NCBI GenBank assembly: GCA_900552775.1 | Contig: USAP01000021.1 | Coordinates: forward strand, 1 to 15,177 | DNA from: an uncultured Eubacteriales bacterium | Lineage (GTDB): Bacteria; Bacillota; Clostridia; UMGS1883; UMGS1540 | DNA length: 15,177 bases | Direction: 5' to 3' | Part shown: positions 13,247 through 15,177 of the stretch, in pieces | How the letters are laid out: every line of letters begins with the position of its first letter | How positions within the stretch are numbered: the first letter of the stretch is position 1 | Translations under genes and position numbers: made by a program | Notes under the pieces: generated by a model | Database searches by the model: none | What the model was told of the DNA's origin: nothing | The model's input: only the letters and a program-made list of their open reading frames with translations

Positions 13247-14143
13247 ATGAGAATATTTGACGCGCACTGTGACACGCTTGATTTACTCGGCGATAACACA
13301 TCCTTAAAAAACATAAAGGCACATTATAATTTCGAAAAAGCCGCAAAATACGAAACGCACATTCAGCTCACCGCAATATGGCTTGACAATGCGGAACACG
13401 ATGTGCCGCGCCGCGTCCGCACGCTTATAAAAAGATTTAACACCGAAACACAAAATGTACACGTTATAAAATCCGCCGCAGACCTTAAAAATGCAGAAGG
13501 CGTATCGGTTATCCTCGGAATAGAAGGCGGAGAAGGCGCGGAAGGCAGCCTTCAGCGTCTCGAAGAGCTTTTCGGCGAGGGCGTGCGTCTTATGACATTG
13601 ACATGGAACCACAAAAATGAAATAAGCGGTACGGCATTTGAAAAAAGCGGTGGACTTACGGATTTCGGCAAAAAAGCTGTTTTAAAAATGCAGGAACTTC
13701 ATATGATGATTGACGTGTCGCACCTGTCCGACGAAGGATTTTGTGATGTTGCCGAAATCACTTCGAAACCATTTATCGCGTCACATTCAAATTCGCGCAC
13801 TGTCTGCCCTCATTTTCGCAACCTCACGGACGATCAGTTTAAAGTTCTCATAAAACGCGGCGGTGTTGCCGGAATAAACCTTTGCCCCGATTTTCTCGGT
13901 ACAGACCCGTCTGTGGATTCTATCGTGCGCCACATAGAGCATTTCGCGGCTTTGGGCGGTGAAAACAATATCGGCATAGGCGCGGACTTTGACGGAATAG
14001 GCTCACTTCCGCGCGGGATACGCGGCACGGAGGATTTGTATAAAATTTTTGACAGACTTCTTTCTCTCAACTATTCTCAGGAGCAGGCTGATAAAATCGC
14101 CTTTTCGAATATGTACCGCGTTTTTTCGGAAGTTCTGGAATAA
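13247..14143 (+). CDS. Membrane dipeptidase-like metallopeptidase, family M19
   Basis: The product is 298 residues, with ATG at 13247 preceded by AAAGGAC. It begins MRIFDAHCDT, the HxD metal ligand pair (His7, Asp9) of the renal dipeptidase family. The bridging glutamate is Glu93 in GIEGG. The other expected ligands are His159 in DVSHLSD and His180 in ASHSNSR, with the catalytic aspartate Asp247 in GADFDG. All active-site residues are present. There is no signal peptide, so it is probably cytosolic. M19 enzymes cleave dipeptides, including those with D-residues at the C-terminal side. It lies 63 bp after the HAD gene with no clear promoter between, so it may be the third gene of the CLC unit. 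It is slightly short for the family. Confidence 0.92.
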   Translation: MRIFDAHCDTLDLLGDNTSLKNIKAHYNFEKAAKYETHIQLTAIWLDNAEHDVPRRVRTLIKRFNTETQNVHVIKSAADLKNAEGVSVILGIEGGEGAEGSLQRLEELFGEGVRLMTLTWNHKNEISGTAFEKSGGLTDFGKKAVLKMQELHMMIDVSHLSDEGFCDVAEITSKPFIASHSNSRTVCPHFRNLTDDQFKVLIKRGGVAGINLCPDFLGTDPSVDSIVRHIEHFAALGGENNIGIGADFDGIGSLPRGIRGTEDLYKIFDRLLSLNYSQEQADKIAFSNMYRVFSEVLE

Positions 14144-14214: not shown

Positions 14215-14243
14215 TTGAATTTTGCGGATAAACGGTGTATAAT
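14215..14243 (+). promoter_or_regulatory. Sigma-A promoter of the structured RNA
   Basis: TTGAAT (14215-14220) and a perfect TATAAT (14238-14243) are exactly 17 bp apart. The predicted start is G14250, which is the first base of a 5' hairpin (GTCGG/CCGAC). The agreement between promoter and RNA structure supports both. Confidence 0.85.
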
Positions 14244-14249
14244 AAATTT

Positions 14250-14490
14250 GTCGGAGTAAGCCGACAGGCAGTTCGGGAATGAACATTCCGTGGCCGCCTC
14301 GCCCTCTCCCCATTACATAATGGGGAGAGGGTGTTGCTTATGAAGGAAACTATATTCAGAGTATTGTTTTTTTACAATTATCTTTATGATAGTTTTTACT
14401 GTAAAAGCAAGTTAGTTGCCCACACTCCCAATGTTTGCGACTAACTTTCTCGTATAACTTTGGCGAGCCGTTCAAACGGACTGCCTTTTT
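14250..14490 (+). ncRNA. Stand-alone structured noncoding RNA, about 240 nt, family not settled
   Basis: The transcript would start near 14250 and end in the U-run at 14486-14490. Hairpins visible by eye are: 14250-14254 with 14261-14265; 14276-14280 with 14285-14289 (GAAC loop); a perfect 14-bp stem 14302-14315 with 14318-14331; 14363-14367 with 14374-14378; an 11-bp stem 14409-14419 with 14437-14447 (one G-U pair); and CCGT/ACGG at 14468-14480. Two long-range helices close the structure: AGGCAGT (14266-14272) with ACTGCCT (14480-14486), and CTCGCC (14298-14303) with GGCGAG (14462-14467). The second competes with the first bases of the 14-bp stem. The outer helix doubles as the terminator stem. 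About 160 bp and another promoter separate it from the next gene, so it is not a leader. My best family guess is raiA RNA, with 6S RNA less likely; neither is verified. Confidence 0.75.
14302..14331. repeat. Perfect palindrome inside the structured RNA
   Basis: CCCTCTCCCCATTA and its exact reverse complement TAATGGGGAGAGGG are separated by two bases. GGGGAGAGGG-type palindromes are often dispersed repeats in clostridial genomes, so this arm may be a repeat captured by the RNA, or simply one of its helices. Confidence 0.6.
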
Positions 14491-14648
14491 CTATTATCAT
14501 TATACATCTGAAAAGTGTTTTTATCAACCGTTTACCGGAAAATTAATTTCCTTCCTGCATTTTTCAGACAAAACATCCTTTTTATTATCCCGGAACGAAA
14601 GAAAAACTTAAAAACAGGTAATTCATGCATTGCCCTAATATGTCGCTA
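14491..14648. other. AT-rich spacer between the structured RNA and the next promoter
   Basis: No gene, strong hairpin or repeat was found in this part of the gap. The AT-rich sequence begins directly after the RNA terminator and leads to the promoter at 14649. Confidence 0.5.
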
Positions 14649-14677
14649 TTGACTTTTTTGCAATCTTCTGCTAAAAT
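14649..14677 (+). promoter_or_regulatory. Sigma-A promoter of the membrane glycosyltransferase gene
   Basis: TTGACT (14649-14654) and TAAAAT (14672-14677) are 17 bp apart, 43 bp before the ATG at 14721. It shows that the downstream gene does not depend on the structured RNA transcript. Confidence 0.8.
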
Positions 14678-14720: not shown

Positions 14721-15177
14721 ATGAAAACACTAAAAAACTTTTTCGGTTATTTTTTCGCAATACTTTTCGGCATCATAGGCATTTTTGGGGTATATCTTGC
14801 AATAAGGCGCACGGCGTACAGTCCCGCGGCATACCTCTCGGGAGCCACGGCGGCGCTCCTTTTGAGCGCTTTTATATTTTTTGTGATCAAAGCGCTTGAC
14901 AAAGACAAAATTTCCGCGCGCGGAGTGCTCTTTTTGTCGCTCGGAGCGGCTTTTTTTGTGCGTCTGCTGTTCCTTTTAAACGTGCACACCGCGCCCGTGA
15001 GCGACTTTAAAACCATGTTTGAAGCCGCCGCGCTTGCCGGCAAAGGAGACTTTTCAAACTTCACAATCGGGACTTATTTTCACCGTTTTTCGCACCTGAC
15101 ATGCTTTCCTCTGCTGTGCTCACTTGTCTTCCGCTTTGGAGGAAATCTTTTCACGGTGAAAGTCATAAACACGCTGC
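14721..15177 (+). CDS. Multi-pass membrane protein, probable GT-C glycosyltransferase (partial)
   Basis: ATG at 14721 follows GCGAGG by about 10 nt, and the frame stays open for 152 codons to the window edge. The N-terminus contains hydrophobic segments at about residues 8-27, 37-56 and 67-86. A loop then reads NVHTAPVSDFKTMFEAAALA. An acidic residue in the first large extracytoplasmic loop (here Asp94 in APVSDF), followed by a helix of the form YxxAxxLAxG, is the layout of GT39/PMT-like glycosyltransferases, which use polyprenyl-phosphate sugars at the membrane. The following FHRFSHLTCFPLLCSLVFRF fits a further membrane segment. The assignment rests on this layout and on hydrophobicity, since most of the protein lies beyond the edge. 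Alternatives are a polysaccharide-related membrane protein of another GT-C family. Confidence 0.6.
   Translation, partial: MKTLKNFFGYFFAILFGIIGIFGVYLAIRRTAYSPAAYLSGATAALLLSAFIFFVIKALDKDKISARGVLFLSLGAAFFVRLLFLLNVHTAPVSDFKTMFEAAALAGKGDFSNFTIGTYFHRFSHLTCFPLLCSLVFRFGGNLFTVKVINTL

Follow-up and report, generated by a model that had tools for sequence, protein, structure and literature searches.

A 577-bp intergenic gap in an uncultured Eubacteriales bacterium very likely carries a copy of a type I toxin-antitoxin family that appears to be uncatalogued and that, judging from the sequence searches reported here, looks widespread in Clostridia. The window (i.e., the whole 15,177-nucleotide stretch of DNA analysed) would encode the toxin mRNA on its plus strand and the antitoxin on its minus strand. 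This particular copy is probably dead or mis-sequenced, as its peptide frame is broken; intact copies are present in relatives.

The gap lies between an M19 dipeptidase gene (13247 to 14143; Pfam) and an open frame that begins at 14721 and continues beyond the window end. An earlier note on this DNA had proposed a TTGAAT-17-TATAAT promoter followed by a 5' hairpin, and both were present: the plus-strand promoter at 14215 to 14243 (10/12 in the promoter scan), and the hairpin (GTCGG...CCGAC) at 14250 to 14265 in the MFE structure. The hairpin was also seen by eye in four relatives (L032, L033, L036, and L046), and many relatives have TTGAAA, TTGAAT, TTGCAA, or TTGACA at 17 to 18 nt from TATAAT, upstream of the leader. 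Folding of the RNA from 14249 to 14494 gave −99 kcal/mol (z = −8.85); 200 shuffled sequences averaged −58.1, and none of them was as good. The two long-range helices that the note had drawn between the RNA ends both occur in this MFE structure, in which 14266 to 14275 pairs with 14477 to 14486, and 14292 to 14298 pairs with 14462 to 14465 and 14467 to 14469. The 5' module (14266 to 14298, plus strand), which pairs with the 3' end in the MFE structure, is thereby made up of the outer helix strand, a small hairpin (14276 to 14289), and the inner helix strand. Downstream of it, a 15-bp hairpin in the fold (14300 to 14333, plus strand) hides the Shine-Dalgarno (SD) site GGAGAGGG (14324 to 14331), whose mean unpaired probability was 0.10 in the window mRNA.

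The outer helix had also been taken for the terminator. The helix and a U-run (14486 to 14490) are indeed there, but the 3' module (14462 to 14490, plus strand) formed a short, terminator-like hairpin with the U-run when the last 40 nt were folded alone, and this hairpin could terminate by itself; in the full-length RNA, the same stretch is used for pairing with the 5' module. No plus-strand terminator at 14462 to 14490 was present in the output of a simple terminator scan. The next gene has a promoter-like site of its own ahead of the 14721 frame (14649 to 14677; 10/12), as the note had stated. With its own promoter and its strong fold, the RNA is a self-contained, heavily structured transcription unit and not a riboswitch leader of that gene, again in agreement with the first reading. 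Two features had been overlooked, namely a minus-strand promoter scoring 11/12 and an open reading frame (ORF) starting at ATG 14340 behind the sequestered SD site.

The minus-strand promoter (TTGATA-17-TATAAT, 14499 to 14527; 11/12 in the scan) reads into the 3' end of the mRNA. It precedes a predicted antitoxin RNA of about 90 nt (14403 to 14492, minus strand), which is complementary to the mRNA 3' end and to the end of the ORF. The fold of this RNA reached −27.3 kcal/mol (z = −2.65), with 4 of 200 shuffles as good. It contains a 5' hairpin (14462 to 14485, minus strand) and a terminator-like hairpin with a U-run that overlaps the ORF end (14403 to 14451, minus strand). Both hairpins are supported by the fold, by covariation in relatives, and by the match to R1, a covariance model of the antisense part that was built from 28 relatives with the window excluded. 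These 28 were taken into alignment A2 from 35 antisense references, leaving out L035:1472, L038, L043, two of L052, L063, and L064. An unfiltered search of the window with R1 placed the best match on the minus strand at 14536 to 14385 (75.2 bits; E = 5.2e-10), and the next best reached 22.1 bits. Judged from sequence, a putative antisense gene with a promoter and a terminator therefore overlaps the toxin mRNA.

The peptide frame of the window copy is interrupted. The ORF from the SD-proximal ATG (14340 to 14444, plus strand; 34 aa as it stands) resembles the N terminus of the toxin family in its first part and then departs from the hydrophobic frame, and the hydrophobic C-terminal part is found in a second frame (14344 to 14412, plus strand; stop at 14413 to 14415). 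The window's 723 stop-to-stop segments were searched with a profile built from 17 type-A-like peptides. The best was 14344 to 14412 (E = 2e-4), and the second was 14283 to 14441, which contains the SD-proximal ORF and is weak alone (E = 0.56, with the next at 0.66). As the sequence stands, the peptide is split over the two frames near a run of seven T (14367 to 14373, plus strand), which sequence and profile place close to the change-over. Because of this split, the window copy probably makes no working toxin. It has no ORF under the family rule given below, and with no unbroken small hydrophobic peptide gene it is called a damaged copy and not a working member. The split may stem from decay, from a sequencing error, or from a frameshift used in the cell. 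The R1 match and the profile matches in two frames together lead us to regard the window as a diverged family member with a split peptide.

Relatives were reached by several routes. A scan with the dipeptidase led to L001 in genome G001 (69% identity), and a DNA search across the order of that genome yielded matches, all of them weak, in 4 of 28 genomes. The complete arrangement, including a short in-frame ORF, was seen in three copies from genome G007. With one of them (L029) as the DNA query, 40 of 391 class-level genomes were matched at an E value of 1e-3 (two candidates scored per genome), the weakest of which may be chance. The recurrent parts of a unit were an SD site (GGAGGTG or GGGGGTG), an ATG approximately 110 to 130 nt ahead of the 3' core GGCATAACCGTTTGAGGTCTTGCC, a peptide mostly of 22 to 24 residues, and, in most units, a perfect TTGACA-17-TATAAT directed back into the unit. 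The antisense covariance model matched 54 of the 391 sampled class-level genomes (about one in seven) at an E value of 1e-4, with stricter filters and at most seven candidates scored per genome. At an E value of 1e-3, it matched 14 of the 28 genomes in the order of G001, including one with 16 copies (G015), as well as 5 of the 15 genomes behind the named loci. These five, the genomes of L003, L005, L007, L008, and L009, are all MAGs with the name Lapin, and only that of L005 exceeded 53 bits. G001, the nearest genome by the neighbouring dipeptidase, had no match to the antisense model. In the phylum of G411, the single match among 199 genomes (L167; promoter 7/12) is doubtful.

Units occur in different genomic settings. 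The window's unit sits amid ordinary chromosomal genes, and genome G056 has three units in tandem at a spacing of approximately 350 bp. A search with the exact 25-nt core alone found five IMG/VR contigs, which form two near-identical groups and all carry TTGACA-17-TATAAT. In L060:12915-14361 and L062:622-3446 (both IMG/VR), the unit is flanked by a tape-measure gene and by the tail- or endolysin-like gene that follows, in a phage-like tail module. Downstream of the dipeptidase gene in L001 (11163 to 11355) there is a cobalamin riboswitch, and no unit of the toxin-antitoxin family was found there. The best DNA match to the 5' half of the window RNA (L024:1471-1574; 76% over 107 columns) consists of a promoter and the 5' half only, with no ORF, antisense half, or R1 match, and looks like a remnant. 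DNA searches with the window RNA gave no match in phages and two records in plasmids (41 bp; E = 0.9), and the relative L032 gave none in plasmids. The only phage match of L032, 47 bp of the AT-rich promoter end in phage G (two records; E = 6e-4), was judged to be chance. Six further candidates (L026, L027, L019, L022, L016, and L017) appeared on reading to be chance or coding matches.

A small hydrophobic peptide ORF recurs across the family. We assembled 86 units from 92 antisense-model matches by removing the six that scored lowest (42.4 bits or less). To these, 16 of 22 further matches were added; four repeats of counted loci, L099 (which repeats L141), and one sense-end match were left out. 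Under a rule that required a hydrophobic ORF of 18 to 45 aa with its stop within a narrow place, 92 of the 102 distinct units had an ORF (median, 23 aa; range, 19 to 38). The exceptions were the window, L035:1471, L111, L038, L043, L105, L119, L116, L131:1035, and L150. The same rule found an ORF in 77 of the 86 units, compared with a mean of 3.25 and a maximum of 8 over 20 rounds of shuffling. An SD-like site precedes the peptide gene in most of the units listed. The peptides, which include the types MGKYILRIIFLTIVFLITLTKKVR, MDNEYIISFMIILLLLVISIKK, MTEREFLLLFLIIVLFIIIIIKK, and MAKKLLIAFFVVIILMILLPIKAQ, are hydrophobic with mostly basic ends. Six of the peptides had no match over the cutoff in Pfam (best E = 1.4; 10.5 bits against 40) and none in NCBIfam, and these searches gave no peptide match to Fst/Ldr, Hok, TxpA, or other curated toxin families. 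Eight had no convincing match in PHROGs, the best (E = 0.031) being of unknown function. The antisense promoter scored 12/12 in 86 of the 102 units, 11 in 13, 10 in 1, and 7 in 2; this count leans upward because the search model with which most of the units were collected contains the promoter.

The ORFs also vary as coding sequences do. Differences at codon positions 1, 2, and 3 numbered 1,055, 669, and 1,456 among type-A ORFs (n = 17; 136 pairs, not independent) and 2,702, 1,354, and 3,130 among type-B ORFs (n = 25; 300 pairs, likewise not independent), so that in both types variation is highest at third and lowest at second positions. In one branch, the SD-proximal frame is a leader ORF, which starts mostly with MKSKH, also with MKSRH or MKNKH, and runs into the toxin ORF in a different reading frame. 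The start codon of the toxin follows 22 to 25 nt later and has no evident SD site of its own, an arrangement like that of mok/hok. Members of this branch are L049:1495-1645, L127:401-550, L065:1501-1654, L152:1501-1650, L098:1501-1651, L145:1501-1652, L141:401-550, L070:1501-1649, L118:401-543, and L117:401-552.

Base pairing in the antisense RNA is conserved by compensatory change. The covariation alignment (A4) comprised 91 rows from 83 chosen sources. Over the 5' hairpin and the terminator stem of these 91 units, 97.5% of cells were paired, in an alignment that was fitted to the model structure and leans towards structure; in slid versions of the stems, pairing fell to 22 to 45%. Changes on both sides were found for 11 of 15 pairs, compared with a shuffled mean of 4.9, and none of 500 shuffles was as high. 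Both hairpins covary, the terminator hairpin with 6 of its 7 modelled pairs changed on both sides. Wobble pairing agrees with the antisense strand, on which 133 cells are G-U and 9 are A-C; the latter would be wobbles only if read from the opposite strand. One nearly fixed pair supplies 69 of the 133, and without it the counts are 64 and 7. The anatomy, conservation, covariation, and coding pattern of the family were all observed by computation. Conservation through a protein frame in place of paired positions, the outcome that the earlier note had named as contrary to its RNA reading, was found in part, and much of the rest is antisense pairing.

The 25-nt 3' core GGCATAACCGTTTGAGGTCTTGCCT has nearly fixed letters across many units despite widely differing peptides. 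A cis antisense pair would require complementarity only, and diverged branches, including the window, keep the pairing with other letters. Candidate reasons for the near-fixed core are protein binding, cross-talk, and recent spread.

The mRNAs were folded for 62 of the 86 units (i.e., those with an ORF and a sense promoter score of at least 9) and then for 21 representatives; the frames behind both the promoter survey and the folds were those of the leader instead of the toxin in L049, L127, L065, and L117, of which L049 and L127 are among the 62. End-to-end pairing was predicted for most of the 62, with a mean probability of 0.62 per base of the last 36. Pairing between the ends is almost absent from three units (L028, L135, and L136; values near zero) and weak in two (L066 and L067; 0.28). 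In 16 of the 21 representatives, including the window, a unit's own 5' module paired with its own 3' end better than did all 20 swapped modules. The own pairing also beat all 100 shuffles in 20 of the 21, the window narrowly (−33.0 against a best of −32.0) and L135 being the exception. Since own modules pair better than both swaps and shuffles, the two mRNA ends show compensatory change. The mean unpaired probability of the SD site over the 62 mRNAs was 0.19, and the models are consistent with a toxin mRNA silenced by structure. Release of the SD site by 3' trimming, as in hok, found no support in the folds, where removal of the last 34 nt lowered this probability from 0.19 to 0.14 over the 62 mRNAs. 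Because trimming leaves SD accessibility unraised, we prefer a role for end closure in mRNA stability, by analogy with the 5' helix of Fst RNA I as described in excerpts of PMC7472228.

The antisense model also matches sense 5' ends (L050, 42.4 bits; L051, 36.3 bits; L144, 47.4 bits). The mRNA 5' end resembles the antisense 5' end because both pair with the same 3' stretch, and the internal copy in the mRNA would compete with the antitoxin for that stretch. A YUNR motif occurs in the 3' loop of 39 of the 62 mRNAs and in 4 of the 62 antisense loops, with none in the window's 3' loop; in the modelled folds it only suggests a loop-to-loop contact between antitoxin and mRNA.

From these patterns we infer transcription, toxicity, mRNA stability, and cleavage in the following scheme. 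The plus-strand RNA would encode the predicted toxin, a tiny membrane peptide, and as an mRNA would conceal its ribosome site in a hairpin and close its own two ends. From the strong promoter just beyond the mRNA 3' end, the minus strand would yield the short predicted antitoxin. The 5' hairpin of this RNA may contact the 3' hairpin of the mRNA loop to loop, after which the duplex would extend into the coding end and double-strand cleavage would remove the toxin mRNA. The 5' module of the mRNA could serve as a built-in stand-in for the antitoxin, in which case the closed, full-length mRNA would be stable and beyond the antitoxin's reach. If the antitoxin supply ended, the longer-lived mRNA would give the peptide and the cell would be harmed. 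About equally likely to be right or wrong, in our view, is the fuller proposal: that the family mRNA 5' end copies the 5' end of its own antitoxin, that mimic and antitoxin contest the 3' stretch in a switch between closed, stored mRNA and destroyed mRNA, and that all this belongs to a large uncatalogued family of Clostridia with one branch using a mok-like leader frame.

Other explanations of the locus were weighed against the type I reading. The earlier note had favoured a stand-alone regulatory non-coding RNA (raiA-like, with 6S-like or a new large class as further options), and the strong fold, the own promoter, and the terminator-like end would suit one. The window had no covariance-model match at gathering to the raiA motif (RF03072), to 6S, or to any other Rfam class. 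Down to an E value of 10 there were 13 matches, all well under the cutoffs and none of them raiA or 6S; the best was to a snoRNA model (27.6 bits against 53), and the type I antitoxin RatA matched the antisense stretch (14502 to 14390, minus strand) no better than expected by chance (20.3 bits against 49; E = 5.7). Nor was there an Rfam match at the family units of 16 relatives, where three matches (lysine riboswitch, tRNA, and S10 leader) fell outside the units. The conserved, coding-like ORF with its SD site in the middle also speaks against this reading, as do the conservation of the antisense promoter and the strand bias of the pairing opposite. The large non-coding RNA class was rejected for the window, and a stand-alone regulatory non-coding RNA is highly improbable; at most, the broken window copy may have a secondary RNA role. 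We give just as little credence to a mobile, MITE-like repeat with terminal inverted repeats in which the promoters and the ORF are incidental. Such an element would account for inverted-repeat-like ends with inward promoters, for the antisense-model matches at sense 5' ends, and for the 16 copies in one genome, but the ends of diverged units are compensatory rather than identical, the ORFs show codon-position bias, and they occur far above the shuffled level.

That the locus makes a non-toxic membrane peptide of small size and physiological function, under antisense RNA control, is unlikely, though less so than either of these. Hydrophobic, mostly basic-ended peptides suit any small membrane regulator, and the chromosomal surroundings of the window's unit fit such a role. 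It is disfavoured by the many divergent copies with tandem arrays in some genomes, by the patchy presence among the class-level genomes together with copies in phage-like contigs, and by the layered silencing (hidden SD site, closed ends, and strong antisense promoter), which resembles that of type I toxins.

Under the type I reading, the family combines traits of several known systems. According to excerpts of PMC7472228, the toxin and antitoxin RNAs of par(pAD1) in Enterococcus (Fst; RNA I and RNA II) are convergent and their contact starts at complementary stem-loops, and RNA I has its SD site in a local stem-loop and its 5' end in a stabilising helix. As far as those excerpts go, the family shares the convergent RNAs, the complementary stem-loops, the locally hidden SD site, and the 5' end held in a helix. 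Unlike in par(pAD1), the mRNA ends are joined by inverted and not direct repeats, and there is no shared bidirectional terminator; the family antitoxin starts at the mRNA 3' end and has a terminator overlapping the ORF end. The toxins, mostly of 22 to 24 aa, also differ from Fst/Ldr in size (Fst has 33 aa), and those searched gave no family match. In hok/sok and aapA/IsoA, the full-length toxin mRNA is closed by 5'-3' pairing (PMC6733600, in excerpt), as is predicted here. In contrast to both, the SD site of the family lies in a local hairpin, the fold predicts no release by 3' trimming, and the antisense RNA covers the mRNA 3' end. The mok frame overlaps hok as a leader frame, and one branch of the family likewise has an SD-proximal leader ORF that overlaps the toxin in another frame. 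Ibs of Escherichia coli, at 18 to 19 aa, is smaller than the family toxins, which from their predicted sequences would nevertheless be among the smallest.

In excerpts of the 2019 review PMC6563280, txpA/RatA and bsrG/SR4 of Bacillus and the CD2517.1/RCd8-type modules of Clostridioides difficile combine a hydrophobic peptide with a charged end and an overlapping antisense RNA, often in a prophage. The family shares the peptide character, the charged end, and the overlapping antisense RNA with these systems. The toxins given there are longer (28 to 60 aa in B. subtilis and 34 to 59 aa in C. difficile) than the 22 to 24 aa typical of the family, six of whose peptides gave no match above a cutoff in Pfam or NCBIfam. 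The same excerpts name C. difficile alone for validated type I modules in Clostridia. No description of such units was found in the excerpts of PMC6563280, PMC6733600, PMC7699646, PMC7472228, and PMC11109978, a coverage that lies outside the type I catalogues.

The family also bears on how intergenic RNAs are read, since a strongly structured intergenic "noncoding RNA" can be a toxin mRNA together with its antisense partner. The units are shorter than the usual gene callers accept. A short covariance model detects them, and this would make their toxicity, the cross-talk between copies, and their role in phages and chromosomes testable.
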